From positions 1 through 41,485 of the forward strand of contig JAJFUE010000210.1 in assembly GCA_021372575.1 (NCBI GenBank): a DNA stretch of 41,485 nucleotides. Reading direction: 5' to 3'. The translations under genes were made by a program, and so were the position numbers. Position 1 is the first letter of the stretch; each line of letters begins with the position of its first letter. The notes below the pieces were generated by a model, which saw nothing but the letters and a program-made list of their open reading frames with translations, searched no databases and was not told the origin of the DNA. The stretch comes from a bacterium (GTDB lineage Bacteria > Sumerlaeota > Sumerlaeia > MVZB01). Shown here in pieces: positions 21,721-30,038 of the stretch.

Positions 21721-24042
21721 TCATTCCGGTGACGGGGACAGGCAGCCGTTCGTCCCGGTCCGTCTGGCGGCGCAGGCGCGGATCGCGGCGACAAGATCCG
21801 AGGCGGGCGCGGTTTTCGGCAGGTAGCGCGCCGCTCCGGCAGTGCGCATCGCCTCGGCGCGATCGCTTTCCTCGAACATCGAAAGGCCGATGATCTGGAT
21901 GCCGGGGAATTCGGCGTGGATGCGCCGGGTCGCCTCGATCCCGTTCATGCCGGGCATGCTGATGTCCATCAGGATGACCGAGGGGCGCGCCTTGCGGGCC
22001 ATGTCGATGGCCTGTTCGCCGCTTGAGGCCTCGGCGACGATCTTCATGTCCGCCTGCTCGCCGATGAGCATCGAGAGCCCTTGCAGCATGACGAGGTGGT
22101 CATCCACGACCATGATGCGGATGGGGCCGGACCCGTCGCCGCCCGGCACAAGGACCGGCAGGGACGGGCAGGGGATCTCCATCTCCGAAAACATGGGTTG
22201 TTCCCCCAGGAAAGCGGAGGCCGGCAGCGGGGCGGCGATGACGATGCGGGTCCCCTTGCCGGGCGCGCTGTGAACCTCCAGCGAGCCTCCCAGATGCTGA
22301 AGGCGCTCCCGGACGCTGAACAGGCCGTAAGACCCGGACTCGCCGGCGTCGGTATCGGTGGCCGGGTCGAAGCCGACGCCTTCGTCGGCGACCACGATTT
22401 CAAGGTTGTCGGCGCGGCGCGCGACGCGGACCCGGGCTTTGTTCACGCCGGAGTGCTTGACGACGTTGAACAGGAGCTCGCGCACCGTCTGGAACAGGAT
22501 GATGGTCATGTCTTCGGGGGGCTGGACGGCCACGTGGACATCGAGCTCGACGGCAAGGCGCTGCCGGGCGTCCATCCAGCGCGCAAGCCACTGCAGGGCG
22601 GGGATCAGGCCCCCCTCGCGCAGGATCGGCGGGCAGAGTTCGGCGGTGAGCGACCGCGACGTCTGGATGGCATCGTCGAGCAGGTCGCCGATTTCCGCGG
22701 CCATCTGCCCGACGTTTTCGGGCCTGGCGCGCTCGAGCAGGTTGAGCCGCAGGCGCGCTCCGGCGAGCAGTTGCTGAAGCCCGTCGTGCAGGACCTGGGC
22801 CAGGCGCTGGCGTTCGCGCTGCTCGGTCAGCGCCAGTTCGCCGGCCAGCGCGCGCAACTGTTCCGTGCGGCGGCGCAGGTCCTGCTCGATCTCAGTTCGC
22901 GCCTGGATTTCCTGGCACAGGGTCTCGACGGTCTGGTTCAGTTCCGCCGTGCGCGCCTCGACGCTCCGCTCAAGGTCCACCTTGGCCGTCAGGACGGCCT
23001 TCTGCAGGCGCATGATTTCAAGGGCGAGTGACGACTTGGCGGCGGCCCATTCGACGAGTGCGAATTCCTCGGGCGTCCACTGCCGGGGCTGGTCGGAATA
23101 GAGCTCAATCGCGCCGGCGGGCCGGCCGCCAAGGTGCAGCGGAGCAGCCAGGACCGAGCGAATGCGCATCGCCTGCGGGCAGGGGACGATGATGTCGGGC
23201 CGGTCGAGAAGGTCTTCGATATAGCCGGTCTTGTCTTCCTGCATGACGGCAGCGGCCAGGGAATCGCCGTGCGGGAACCGGGCTATGCCGTCATTGCCGA
23301 AACCGCATTTGGCGCAGAGCACGCATTCACCCTCGACGACTTCCAGAACGCCCGACGCGACCGCGCGGCCTTGCGCGACGGCGAGCAGCGCGCGGCAGAT
23401 TTCGTCCAGGACGGCCTGTTCGCCTTCCAGCGCGTGGACCGAGTCGAGCATCTTCATCAGGATCGCCTCGCGATGCGCGATCTCGAGGTTGAGCGCGTTG
23501 AGATCCTCGTTTTGCTCCTGAAGCTCCTCGCGCTGCTGTTCGAGTTCCTCGGATTGCTGGCGGAGCTCCTCGTTTTGCTGCTCGAGCTCCTCGGCCTGAA
23601 CTCGCAGTTCCTCGGTCTGGCTTTCGAGTTCCCTGTTCTGGGTGTAGATTTCCTTGTTGGCGCGTTCCAGTTTGAGTTTGCGCCGTTCAACCTTTCGCAT
23701 CAGCCTGGCGATCGCGTGGACCGCCCAGCCGATCAGGATCAGGTTGACAAGATGCATGCCCCATTGGATGACTTCAAAGCCCGGGATTTCGCCCGGTTTC
23801 GGCAGGAGAAAGAACGCCTTGTATGCCGACATGAGCGCAAACGCGAACACCATCGACCACAGCAGGCGCATGTCCCGGTGCCACAGGCAAATGATCAGGG
23901 GCAGGCCGTACGTCAGCGCGATCATCCTGTCGGGATAAATGACAAGCCGAAGCCATCCCATCAGCGACACGAAGACGACAAAGATCGCGACCGACAAAAC
24001 GGCCGATGGCTTGCGGATTGAAATATCGGATGGTTGCGACAT
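21721..24042 (-). CDS. hybrid sensor histidine kinase (NarL-type HisKA_3) with C-terminal receiver
   Basis: A 773-aa membrane sensor kinase. Four hydrophobic helices (about 1-115) lead to a coiled coil of EEL heptads (about 125-190, EELRVQAEELEQQNEEL). A GAF domain (about 200-345) follows, then the HisKA_3 helix with phospho-His (His419 in QVLHDGLQQLL) and the ATPase domain (DEGVGFD, YGLFSVRERLQHLGG). The C-terminus is a NarL-like receiver (VVDDH, phospho-Asp693 in VILMDISMPG, Lys in YLPKTAP) that lacks a DNA-binding domain. The ATG at 24042 starts one base after the stop of the CheR-like gene (TAA-G-ATG), with AGGA about 8 nt upstream, so the two are translated together. Confidence 0.9.
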   Translation of the reverse strand: MSQPSDISIRKPSAVLSVAIFVVFVSLMGWLRLVIYPDRMIALTYGLPLIICLWHRDMRLLWSMVFAFALMSAYKAFFLLPKPGEIPGFEVIQWGMHLVNLILIGWAVHAIARLMRKVERRKLKLERANKEIYTQNRELESQTEELRVQAEELEQQNEELRQQSEELEQQREELQEQNEDLNALNLEIAHREAILMKMLDSVHALEGEQAVLDEICRALLAVAQGRAVASGVLEVVEGECVLCAKCGFGNDGIARFPHGDSLAAAVMQEDKTGYIEDLLDRPDIIVPCPQAMRIRSVLAAPLHLGGRPAGAIELYSDQPRQWTPEEFALVEWAAAKSSLALEIMRLQKAVLTAKVDLERSVEARTAELNQTVETLCQEIQARTEIEQDLRRRTEQLRALAGELALTEQRERQRLAQVLHDGLQQLLAGARLRLNLLERARPENVGQMAAEIGDLLDDAIQTSRSLTAELCPPILREGGLIPALQWLARWMDARQRLAVELDVHVAVQPPEDMTIILFQTVRELLFNVVKHSGVNKARVRVARRADNLEIVVADEGVGFDPATDTDAGESGSYGLFSVRERLQHLGGSLEVHSAPGKGTRIVIAAPLPASAFLGEQPMFSEMEIPCPSLPVLVPGGDGSGPIRIMVVDDHLVMLQGLSMLIGEQADMKIVAEASSGEQAIDMARKARPSVILMDISMPGMNGIEATRRIHAEFPGIQIIGLSMFEESDRAEAMRTAGAARYLPKTAPASDLVAAIRACAARRTGTNGCLSPSPE
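23515..23610 (-). repeat. 21-bp degenerate tandem repeat (EEL coiled coil)
   Basis: In the minus strand, units with the EEL codons GAGGAGCTC/GAGGAACTC recur every 21 bp, the length of one heptad. They encode the coiled coil of the hybrid kinase. The repeat is explained by protein structure and is not a separate element. Confidence 0.8.
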
Positions 24043-24043
24043 C

Positions 24044-24958
24044 TTAAAAATCCTGGCGCTTTTGATAAATGCAATTCGCAAGACGAACCAAAGGCAGGTG
24101 AGCGGCGGGGCGCTCGCTTTTGCCGGTTACAAGAAAACCGCCCACCGACAGCGAATCGACGATTCCCGCCCACAACTGATGCACGGCTCGCGGGAGCATG
24201 TAAATGGCGACGTTGCGAAACAGGACGACGTCCCACGTGCCGCGAGGCCTGTCGTATAACAGGTCGGCCTTGCGCCACTGCATCCTGGAGCGCAACGCCG
24301 GAATCGCGCGGCGCGATGTGCCGTCGGCGACAAAGTATTGATCGCGCAGCGCGGGATCGACGCCTTCCAATGCGTCGGGCTTGAAAACGCCGGCGGCCGC
24401 CTCGGCGATCGCGTCCGCGCGGCAATCGAGCCCGAGGAAAAAGCTCCGGTCAAGCGCGCCCTGCTCGGCGACCAGCATGGCGAGCGAATAGAGTTCCTGG
24501 CCGCCGCTGCAACCGGCGGCCAGAACGCGAACGCCGCCGCTCCGCCGCGCCACAACCGGGATCACGTCGCGCCTCAACGTTTCGAATACTATCCGGTCGC
24601 GAAAGAACCCGGTCACGCCGATCAGAAGCGCGTTCAACGCGGCCTGCAACAAGTGCGGATGTTGGCCCAGCAATTGGCGGGCCTCGCGGATGGAGGATAC
24701 GCGCAGCGCGCGCAGGCAGGCCGGAACGCGGCGTTGCAGCGCGCCGGCACGGTAAGCGGAAAGATCGCACATCCCGCATTCGCGCAACACCCAGGCGACG
24801 AAGCCGTCGGGGACGAGCCGGTCGTCATCGCGTTCGGGCCGGCAGCTCCATGCGCGATGAAGGTGCGCCCGCCGGCGCACGATGCTTTTGGGAACCGCTT
24901 CAAAACAGATATGGGACAAATCAACAACGGTCCCAAATGATTTCCCGGGTGAACTCAT
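24044..24958 (-). CDS. CheR-like methyltransferase
   Basis: A 304-aa SAM-dependent methyltransferase of the CheR family. It has the CheR N-terminal helical region (about 60-120), then GVTGFFRDRIVFETL, the SAM motif RVLAAGCSGGQELYSLAML (CheR has W.AGCSTGEEPYS), the acid LGLDCRAD, RNVAIYM (CheR CRNVLIYF) and SVGGFLVTGKSE. The usual GEEPYSLA is replaced by GQELYSLA. It would methylate glutamyl residues of receptor-like proteins. No receptor, CheA, CheB or CheW gene is near. It is followed directly by the hybrid kinase, so it is likely part of a non-chemotaxis sensory pathway. The ATG at 24958 is preferred; the frame upstream lacks homology. Confidence 0.85.
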   Translation of the reverse strand: MSSPGKSFGTVVDLSHICFEAVPKSIVRRRAHLHRAWSCRPERDDDRLVPDGFVAWVLRECGMCDLSAYRAGALQRRVPACLRALRVSSIREARQLLGQHPHLLQAALNALLIGVTGFFRDRIVFETLRRDVIPVVARRSGGVRVLAAGCSGGQELYSLAMLVAEQGALDRSFFLGLDCRADAIAEAAAGVFKPDALEGVDPALRDQYFVADGTSRRAIPALRSRMQWRKADLLYDRPRGTWDVVLFRNVAIYMLPRAVHQLWAGIVDSLSVGGFLVTGKSERPAAHLPLVRLANCIYQKRQDF

Positions 24959-27269: not shown

Positions 27270-30038
27270 TCATTTCGCGCGCAACCGCTCCAACCGCTCC
27301 TCATACGCCCACGACTGCAGCGCCTCGCCCGTCACCTTCCGCGGCTGCACGCGCCCATCGACCATTGCCGCTTGCGTCATCGGATGAAATTTCCACTTCC
27401 CAAAATCCGGGATCCGATCCAGACCGTTCAGTCGTGAGAGACTCTCCATTGCATAAAATGCGTCGTTCTCGTTGCCGTGAATCGACACCCCGGAATCCGC
27501 ATCCGCCCGGAACACCCCCTTGCCGCGATAGAACCGCAGGGTTCCCCGAATGCAGGCCTCGCGGTCGATGAGGTCCAGACGGCCCAGCGTGTCGAGCGCG
27601 AAAAGCCCCGCCCACGTTTCGCGCAGCGAGCACATGCCGAAATCAAACAGCCCGGCGGCTTCTTTCAAGTCGATCGGCGACCAATTCGTCGGGATGCGGA
27701 AGTCGGGCGAAACCTGATGGGCGGCGATTTGTTTTGCGATGGTTTCGCGATCGATGAAATCGAGGCAATCGAACTGCTTCAGGATCCACAGGCGCTTGGC
27801 GAAGGTTTCGATGTCGAGGGTGTCGAACCTTCGCAACTCGGGCACGGTGGGAAAGATAACGCCCATCTTGCGATCGAACCATTTCTTCGGGATCTGAAAA
27901 AGCATCTCGCGCACCGGTGTCATGTTGGCTTTGGGGTCGCGCTCGCGAAGCGCCAGCGCCTCCCGTACGCGCGCCGGATCGAATCCGATTTGCGCCAGTT
28001 CCTCGCTCGGCAAAATCGGCGTCGACATCGCGATATAAAGCAAATCGGGATTAATGATGCCGTTGATGATCCGGGCATTGAGAGCGCCTTCATTACGCTC
28101 GTCGAAATCCATCTGCAGCTCTTTGGTGACCAGTCGTTTGTAACCGGCGGCGTTTTCCTTGCCGATCAGCGAGAGCGAAGGATGCGCCGGGCAGCCCCAT
28201 AAATAGAGCAGATCGGCGCGCGCGCCCGATCGGTCGCCGCGAATCCACTCGGAGACGGCCTGCTGCGCCATTGCCTGCGAGACCGGTTTGTCGCCCCACG
28301 CCAGACCCCAGACGAGCGCGCTGTTGCTCCAGATACCCGGCAGGAAACTGAAACCGATCAACAGCGCCAGCGACGCGATCAGCGCGATCCTGTGCTGCAG
28401 CCGATAAGCCTTGGTCTTGCTGAAATCGGTGACGAAGATCGCTTCATCTTCGAGCGTCGAGAGCAGTTTGCGTGCTTCCGTGTGTTGGCCATTCAGGAAG
28501 AACGCAAACGCGTTTTTGATCACTCGGCCGACGCCGTCTTCGAGCGCACGGATGTCGATTGGGTGTTTTAGAAGCGTGCTTAATAATTTCGCATCCGTCG
28601 GAGACATCGTTGCATTGCATGTGCCGTCGGACTGGATCATCACCGTGGAGCGGCCGGCGAAAGTCCCGAGGAGTGAATTCAAGACCGTCATTCGCACGGC
28701 TGGAAGGCGCAAAAGCAAAGTGGCTCCGGAGAGTGCGTAGTCGGTAATGAGCCACTGTTCGCCGAGAAAGCGGGCAAAGCCGCGCAGCTCAGGTTCGGTC
28801 GCAACGCGGCCCGAAGGGCGCTCGGATCCCGGCTCGCCCAGAATTCCGTTGGCAGCGCGCAGGAACAGGTTGTAATCATGCCGCCGCGGCGCCGTCCGAT
28901 TGGCCCGAGGAAGCATCAGGTTCATGAGGAAAATGACCACAAAAACCAAACCCACCGGCGCGCCGAAAAAGCCGATGAGAACGGAGACGAGCAGGAATAA
29001 TGAATTGGCCAGGACCTGCCCGTAAGCGAATCCGCTGCGATTCACGCGCAACCTTACAATGCTTTGATAGAAGCCCCACAAACAGTAAATCGCCAGGATT
29101 TGAAAATAAGTGAACAAGCTAAAATGAGACATCGCAAAAACTATAAATATGAAAACACAAAGGACGCCTAGCGACATCGTCAAAGCCTGCCGTCGCAGCA
29201 GCGTCTTTCGAAAGGCATTCTCGGGCTTATCAACGATGTTCGCCGCCTCCATGCGCATGTACCAGCTCATGATCAGATAAGAGAATCCCGCCTGTCCGAC
29301 CGTCATCCATAATGCAAAAATCATCATCGGGAACAAACCAAGCAGCCAGCCGCCCGCTTTGCTCAACAGCGACGCGCCGCCGCCCGCGCCGACGATCCCA
29401 AGCGGTTTCGCCGGCAGCAATACCATCACCGAGGCCGCGAAGTCCTTGCGCGGCGCGAGCCCCCTGAGGTTGCGCTCGATCTGCTCCTCGAGCCGGCCGC
29501 GCAGCGCGCAGCGCGCGCGGTGCAGCCGCGTCTTGACCGCGACTTCGCTCAGGCCAAGGATCTCCGCCGCCTCGCGAATGCTTTTGCCTTCCAGATAAAA
29601 CAGGACCAGACATTCCCTGAGCTGCGGCGGCAATTCCGACAGCGTGCGCCCGAGCATCTCCTTGAGGTTTTCATCGCTCTCCGCGGCCGGCTGCGGCGCG
29701 GCAGCGGCCTCATCGGGCTGCTCGGCCTGCCAGCGCCTGCGGCCCGCCAGATCGCTGCGCCGCCGCCGCAACAACGTGGCGCTCACGTTGCGCGCGATCT
29801 TCGACAGCCACGCGGGGAACCGCTCGGCATCGCGCAGCGCGCCCAGATAGCGGAAGGCCTTGATGAACGTCTCCTGCGCGGCATCGTCGCACAGGTCCGC
29901 GTCGCCGAGATAGCTCCACGCGATGCCGTACACCATGCGCTGATGCCGCTCGACGAGCTCGGCGAACCGGTCGCGGTCGCCGTGCTTGACGGCTTCAATG
30001 GCCGCGCGATCGGGATTTGTGATCGGACTGTCCATCAT
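27270..30038 (-). CDS. ECF sigma factor fused to a membrane domain and a toroid-like tail
   Basis: A 922-aa protein, against about 200 for a normal ECF sigma factor. Residues 10-85 are region 2 (VERHQRMVYGIAWSYLGD, AQETFIKAFRY), residues 125-185 are region 4 (LPPQLRECLVLFYLEGKS, REAAEILGLSEVAVKTRLHR). About six hydrophobic segments follow (about 230-260, 286-306, 308-328, 343-376 and 551-570). Residues 740-880 have helix pairs that recall prenyltransferase/squalene-cyclase toroid repeats: LWILKQFDCLDFIDRETI, then GLFALDTLGRLDLIDREACI and DAFYAMESLSRLNGLDRI. No catalytic DDxxD or zinc site was found. The tail lies after the last helix and could be outside the membrane. No anti-sigma gene is near. 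A GTAGAA/TTCTAC inverted repeat lies 15 bp upstream of its start. Confidence 0.85.
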   Translation of the reverse strand: MMDSPITNPDRAAIEAVKHGDRDRFAELVERHQRMVYGIAWSYLGDADLCDDAAQETFIKAFRYLGALRDAERFPAWLSKIARNVSATLLRRRRSDLAGRRRWQAEQPDEAAAAPQPAAESDENLKEMLGRTLSELPPQLRECLVLFYLEGKSIREAAEILGLSEVAVKTRLHRARCALRGRLEEQIERNLRGLAPRKDFAASVMVLLPAKPLGIVGAGGGASLLSKAGGWLLGLFPMMIFALWMTVGQAGFSYLIMSWYMRMEAANIVDKPENAFRKTLLRRQALTMSLGVLCVFIFIVFAMSHFSLFTYFQILAIYCLWGFYQSIVRLRVNRSGFAYGQVLANSLFLLVSVLIGFFGAPVGLVFVVIFLMNLMLPRANRTAPRRHDYNLFLRAANGILGEPGSERPSGRVATEPELRGFARFLGEQWLITDYALSGATLLLRLPAVRMTVLNSLLGTFAGRSTVMIQSDGTCNATMSPTDAKLLSTLLKHPIDIRALEDGVGRVIKNAFAFFLNGQHTEARKLLSTLEDEAIFVTDFSKTKAYRLQHRIALIASLALLIGFSFLPGIWSNSALVWGLAWGDKPVSQAMAQQAVSEWIRGDRSGARADLLYLWGCPAHPSLSLIGKENAAGYKRLVTKELQMDFDERNEGALNARIINGIINPDLLYIAMSTPILPSEELAQIGFDPARVREALALRERDPKANMTPVREMLFQIPKKWFDRKMGVIFPTVPELRRFDTLDIETFAKRLWILKQFDCLDFIDRETIAKQIAAHQVSPDFRIPTNWSPIDLKEAAGLFDFGMCSLRETWAGLFALDTLGRLDLIDREACIRGTLRFYRGKGVFRADADSGVSIHGNENDAFYAMESLSRLNGLDRIPDFGKWKFHPMTQAAMVDGRVQPRKVTGEALQSWAYEERLERLRAK

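Follow-up and report, generated by a model that had tools for sequence, protein, structure and literature searches.

The gene described here lies on the minus strand of the window, by which we mean the whole analysed stretch of 41,485 nucleotides. A single open reading frame starts with ATG at position 30038, ends at position 27270 and encodes 922 amino acids with no internal stop. The protein begins with an ECF sigma domain (residues 1–190), continues with hydrophobic segments at residues 229–380 and 549–571, between which a soluble domain (386–548) is placed, and ends with a helical tail (573–922); the coordinates of the respective parts are collected in the table below. The initial annotation had described one 922-aa frame with ECF regions 2 and 4 in its first 190 residues and about six hydrophobic segments between residues 230 and 570. 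The uninterrupted frame and the Pfam assignments agree with the first two points, and six hydrophobic segments were indeed found, but residues 386–548 turned out to be a separate conserved soluble domain and not a part of the membrane. The full-length AlphaFold model, for which 30 sequences were given as input, has a mean pLDDT of 84. Elsewhere in the window (21721–24081, minus strand), a 786-aa frame resembles, by eye only, a membrane-bound histidine kinase carrying a receiver domain.

Features of the 922-aa fusion gene (nucleotide positions in the window; residue numbers of the encoded protein)
Feature	Residues	Positions	Strand	Basis
Whole gene: ECF sigma factor / membrane module / toroid-type tail fusion	1–922	27270..30038	-	Open frame; full-length relatives in two other phyla
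ECF sigma region 2	28–94	29757..29957	-	Pfam PF04542 Sigma70_r2, E 1e-14; AlphaFold model matches sigmaE (PDB 1or7)
ECF sigma region 4	127–176	29511..29660	-	Pfam PF08281 Sigma70_r4_2, E 6.7e-17
Charge-poor Gly/Ala-rich segment; possible weak extra membrane segment	195–228	29355..29456	-	Intermediate insertion score
Hydrophobic segment 1	229–258	29265..29354	-	Central Pro-Gly in many Verrucomicrobiota relatives
Hydrophobic segment 2	285–305	29124..29186	-	Conserved hydrophobicity; AlphaFold
Hydrophobic segment 3	308–332	29043..29117	-	Conserved hydrophobicity; AlphaFold
Hydrophobic segment 4	336–358	28965..29033	-	Conserved hydrophobicity; AlphaFold
Hydrophobic segment 5	361–380	28899..28958	-	Conserved hydrophobicity; AlphaFold
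Soluble "RMDYNLF" domain, alpha/beta in the model	386–548	28395..28883	-	Alignment; pLDDT mostly >90
Hydrophobic segment 6	549–571	28326..28394	-	Basic on N-terminal side
Helical N-terminal part of tail	573–735	27834..28322	-	AlphaFold; full-length model matches RabGGTase beta over about 300 columns
Prenyltransferase-type helical hairpin repeats	740–885	27384..27821	-	PF00432 in relatives; PDB profile matches; superposition on 1dce_B
C-terminal beta hairpin and helix	886–922	27273..27383	-	AlphaFold

The 922-aa protein is an ECF sigma factor (sigma-70 group 4), having regions 2 and 4 connected by a short linker and lacking regions 1 and 3. The general ECF model TIGR02937, as well as the two Pfam models listed in the table, exceeds its cut-off, and comparison of the full-length AlphaFold model with PDB structures retrieved sigmaE, SigW and AlgU, followed by the beta subunit of RabGGTase. 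A search of the upstream regions of 21 family members for the autoregulation motif GGAAC-N14-20-CGT found it in none, 0.74 occurrences being expected by shuffling.

A query of the genome contigs with the 922-aa protein alone gave no relatives. Within its own phylum (40 genomes, of which those with names belong to Candidatus Sumerlaeota), just two other genomes (G013 and G032) have the sigma and membrane parts, both without the tail, and this absence in the nearest members is what might be expected if the frame were a misassembled join of sigma, membrane and toroid genes, a concern already raised with the initial annotation. Relatives with the same three-part layout, which that annotation had proposed to look for, were found in Verrucomicrobiota and in the phylum to which a Ca. 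Hydrogenedentota genome belongs. In the latter, four genomes carry the sigma-membrane-tail layout: three proteins, one of which lacks its N-terminus because the contig ends there, align over residues 200–922 with 36% identity, and one more is split over two contigs. In the order of a Verrucomicrobiales genome, matches were found in 25 of 293 genomes, with the tail included in 19. Full-length relatives have about 880–1070 residues, and the alignment following the layout comprises 23 sequences. A misjoin, whose probability we regard as negligible, is refuted by independent assemblies: in several genomes from the Hydrogenedentota phylum, and in about twenty from the Verrucomicrobiota order, the parts are arranged alike and can be aligned from end to end. 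Contamination was also ruled out, because the tetranucleotide composition of the contig correlates with that of the other contigs of its genome at 0.99 and the MnmG that it encodes shares 74% identity with its counterpart in a same-family genome; this agreement with the genome likewise speaks against a misjoin. As judged from the alignments, the fusion is common to three bacterial phyla, and because its layout recurs in them, it is a real signalling protein. A broken copy was noticed in a genome labelled Ca. Hydrogenedentota (L102:7965-8766), whose phylum was then searched as described above; in this copy the same kind of sigma domain (64% identity) is directly followed, in another frame, by the end of the same kind of tail (54%); the last 95 tail residues are kept, and the membrane module and most of the tail are missing.

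The usual partner of an ECF sigma factor is an anti-sigma factor encoded separately. The zinc anti-sigma motif HxxxCxxC is absent both in the 922-aa protein and in all 30 aligned rows, and the neighbourhood comparison revealed no gene consistently conserved beside the family members, so that no partner anti-sigma gene is evident from the sequences and the inhibition, if any, should reside in the protein itself. All six hydrophobic segments are conserved across the family. The soluble domain inserted before the sixth is also well conserved, with a mean column identity of 46% in the family alignment. It matches no Pfam family, its profile search against PDB gave only weak matches (designed helical proteins, and a PDZ domain at E of about 0.5), and neither comparison disclosed a recognisable anti-sigma relation. 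The membrane module together with this domain is the best candidate for sigma inhibition, the domain itself being the candidate sigma-masking part.

With regard to the tail, the initial annotation pointed out three segments (740–776, 802–845 and 857–880) sharing the pattern LxxLxxLDxIDRE, and regarded the tail as toroid-like, with repeats typical of prenyltransferase beta subunits and squalene cyclases, and without a catalytic motif. The three segments exist, and their pattern proved to be a family signature, with the alignment consensus LGxLDxIDREACIxGILRxHxGxGxF. The tail of the 922-aa protein alone has no match in Pfam or PDB, and a family profile was needed. When all PDB chains were searched with the tail profile, beta subunits of geranylgeranyltransferases (GGTases) were the only confident matches: GGTase-I beta at E 1.9e-8 and 2e-8 and four GGTase-II beta sequences at E 6e-5 to 3e-4, the next match being a designed protein at E 0.88. 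The LDxIDRE pattern is thus beyond a chance resemblance. The Pfam family Prenyltrans (PF00432), which the 922-aa protein by itself does not match, is matched by 17 of 23 relatives when E up to 1 is allowed (best E 2.3e-9), and at least one member, L185, exceeds the curated cut-off (30.7 versus 26.5 bits).

Structure prediction leads to the same family. The separately modelled tail (pTM 0.85) has GGTase beta subunits as its top PDB matches, superposing on RabGGTase beta (1dce_B) over 138 columns at 2.6 Å rmsd, and in the full-length model pLDDT exceeds 90 over most of the toroid region. On the basis of the sequence profile, the Pfam matches in relatives and the predicted fold, a relationship of the tail to prenyltransferase alpha-alpha toroids is supported. 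A closed ring is only partly supported: the good superposition is limited to an arc of about three helical hairpins (740–880), the N-terminal half, although helical, does not complete a clean ring in the model, and the whole-tail TM-score is at best about 0.45–0.48.

The clear relation to GGTase beta subunits raises the question whether the sigma factor carries an enzyme, for prenyl transfer or cyclisation, as its tail. Where the alignment, judged by motif position, should have the zinc-binding D-x-C, most sequences retain the aspartate and the cysteine is lost; relatives have RDTxxAxESL and the 922-aa protein has NDAFYAMESL, with no D-x-C in its tail. The DxDD motif of squalene-hopene and terpene cyclases was found in none of the aligned tails, and the profile match covers only about half of the beta subunit. 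The initial statement that no catalytic motif is present therefore stands, and because both the zinc cysteine and DxDD are missing, catalysis by the tail seems unlikely, an enzymatic role of any kind being in our estimation very improbable. The tail was found in no viral contigs. The tail profile also had no match in 388 genomes of the phylum of G041, a result that carries no weight, as five candidates per genome were scored and there was no positive control. In the genome of the 922-aa protein, the sole other protein found with Prenyltrans repeats is an open frame of 1752 aa (G000:C34:5677-9360).

Comparison among the relatives further indicated that both ends of the protein can be exchanged. 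In two members (L180 and L194), the same membrane module is connected to a sigma domain of a different class, which has about 30% identity to the usual one, as compared with about 50–63% to sigma domains from other fusions and from ECF genes located beside family members. In the trees, L180 groups with L181 by the membrane module (99/96) and forms a very long separate branch by the sigma domain. At the other end, five members (L175, L177, L194, L195 and L196) combine this membrane module with an unrelated tail that is shorter (about 170 residues), is conserved among its five carriers, is helical and repeat-like by eye, and gave no match when three of the five were scanned against Pfam at E 0.05; one further member (L057) ends just after segment 6. 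The ends are swapped around a constant membrane module, which suggests an output, a transmitter and an interchangeable input united in one polypeptide.

The alternative tail is pertinent also to what the toroid-type tail may bind. A short helical domain, repeat-like by eye, replacing it in some relatives would fit a surface for docking of proteins, comparable to the TPR and WD40 extensions known in ECF42 and ECF57 (PMC8999054), and not a sensor of a small molecule or lipid. The toroid repeats, more strongly conserved than the other half of the tail, keep a G-x-G-x-F motif as a binding cavity might, although this is only suggestive, and we consider a pure docking function possible but rather improbable.

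With respect to the location of the tail relative to the membrane, the mean numbers of Lys plus Arg are 6.0, 2.7, 3.6 and 3.7 in the loops 258–285, 327–341, 378–395 and 536–551, as compared with 0.9, 0.1 and 2.1 in the loops on the other side; according to the positive-inside rule, these basic loops place the 386–548 domain in the cytoplasm with the sigma domain, and the tail outside. If, however, the sigma domain is cytoplasmic and each of the six segments crosses once, the tail would come back into the cytoplasm. This conflict vanishes if segment 1 is a hairpin, a possibility raised by the Pro-Gly in the middle of this segment in many relatives, or if residues 195–228 also cross the membrane. 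The latter stretch has an average simplified insertion score of 4.4, which is below the 5% quantile of soluble windows (5.3–7.7) and above the values of the six clear segments, and the AlphaFold model has low pLDDT at residues 212–235.

A different arrangement is obtained when the AlphaFold model is taken literally: it has a continuous helix at 224–266, giving five crossings before the 386–548 domain and a sixth after it, by which the tail would come to the side of the sigma domain. The tail could then contact sigma directly, as known cytoplasmic ECF extensions act directly on their sigma domains (PMC8999054; compare ECF41, ECF42 and ECF238), and the membrane segments would sense the state of the membrane. 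Cysteine 829 in the toroid is nearly invariant with no equally invariant partner, and the cysteine content of the toroid is 1.8%, features that would mildly better fit a cytoplasmic location. This arrangement, however, puts four strongly basic loops outside and uncharged ones inside, contrary to the positive-inside rule, and residues 195–228 could add a further crossing. We thus favour, with fair though incomplete confidence, a tail outside the membrane, and regard direct contact of a cytoplasmic tail with sigma as unlikely.

The reading that we prefer, and to which we assign about an even chance, is a one-protein transmembrane signalling system, in which the sigma domain is the output, the membrane module masks it and the non-catalytic toroid-type tail receives the input. 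It is supported by the intact ECF domain, the layout in relatives, the homology of the tail, the modularity, the non-catalytic nature of the tail and the precedent of ECF factors with membrane extensions whose release by proteolysis is shown or proposed (PMC8999054). Against it count the conflicting indications of topology, the lack of a recognisable anti-sigma relation in the 386–548 domain, the lack of the upstream autoregulation motif and the partial match of the tail to a ring. The N-terminal sigma domain would be tethered to the inner membrane by the protein's own multi-pass module and held inactive there, most likely masked by the 386–548 domain in an anti-sigma-like manner. The tail would sense something, i.e., bind, without catalysis, a hydrophobic or isoprenoid-like ligand or a protein partner, and a change of its state would be transmitted via segment 6 to the 386–548 domain, by which sigma would be freed through a conformational change or through membrane proteolysis as in IutY. 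The masking, ligand binding and sigma release are steps that we infer. The modularity, together with the lack of conserved neighbours and of the zinc anti-sigma motif, is compatible with the idea, proposed at the outset, that the role of an anti-sigma factor is taken over by the membrane segments. A more specific version, for which we have only slight expectation, is a class of sigma factors directly sensing an isoprenoid or other membrane lipid via a prenyltransferase-type cavity, which would couple the status of lipids or envelope carriers to transcription in a single protein.

In a protein of this design, a single chain would hold the output, the membrane transmitter and a candidate sensor of lipid or protein; the natural swaps of sigma domains and tails around a constant membrane module offer ready comparisons for finding which part inhibits and which senses. 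With a prenyltransferase-type fold as a sigma regulatory domain, phyla that have been little studied would gain a new class of sensor. Such fusion proteins may well be labelled simply as sigma factors in public annotation.

Fused ECF factors of other kinds were also noticed. The same genome has two further membrane-anchored ECF sigma factors, of 1590 and 1553 aa (L092:2191-6963, in G000:C174, and L093:4763-9424, in G000:C41), whose long tails contain carboxypeptidase-regulatory-like and Ig-like repeats. Among related genomes of the Sumerlaeota phylum (L059-L096), there are many ECF sigma factors of 400–960 aa with varied tails. Near residue 260, most of these proteins have a hydrophobic segment or a pair of them, so that fusion of sigma factors to membrane parts seems to be common in the phylum. 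One protein (L064:1000-3243, minus strand) combines an ECF sigma domain with a bifunctional nuclease domain (PF02577, E 2.3e-14) and matches TPR weakly; another ECF sigma factor (L076:2001-3869, minus strand) has one membrane segment followed by a C-terminal DUF6263 (E 5.3e-18).

In the literature searched, in which the coverage of subscription papers, including the 2021 ECF classification, is incomplete, we found neither a multi-pass ECF sigma factor with a prenyltransferase-type tail, nor any sigma factor with a toroid or prenyltransferase domain, nor a report on a sigma factor of Sumerlaeota. ECF factors that are anchored in the membrane and carry their own inhibitory part have already been described. 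In IutY of Pseudomonas putida (ECF243), sigma is fused to a membrane anti-sigma factor and is activated by membrane proteolysis; release of sigma by proteolysis has been proposed also for ECF48, ECF52 and ECF53, and direct conformational control is known for soluble ECF extensions (PMC8999054). The membrane helices C-terminal to sigma that characterise IutY and the ECF48/52/53 type are present here as six conserved segments. As in IutY, an ECF sigma domain and a membrane-bound part are in a single polypeptide, the inhibitory role of the latter being established for IutY and predicted here. IutY is a fusion for iron-starvation cell-surface signalling, whereas the present protein has six or more hydrophobic segments, an unrelated 386–548 domain and a toroid-type tail. 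ECF48, ECF52 (SCO4117) and ECF53 of Actinobacteria likewise have a C-terminal membrane extension, but theirs combines one or two membrane helices with an anti-sigma domain of the zinc-finger type (PMC8999054), and the present family lacks the zinc motif. In ECF41, ECF42 and ECF238 (SnoaL, TPR and Cys-rich, respectively), a C-terminal extension replaces the separate anti-sigma factor, a role that we predict also here; their extensions, however, are soluble and short, and none is toroid-like (PMC8999054). The tail resembles the beta subunits of GGTase-I and RabGGTase, and thus PF00432, in sequence profile, in helical-hairpin repeats and in the superposed arc, and differs from them in that only about half of the ring matches well, the zinc-ligand cysteine is not kept, and the fold is fused to a membrane-tethered sigma factor.
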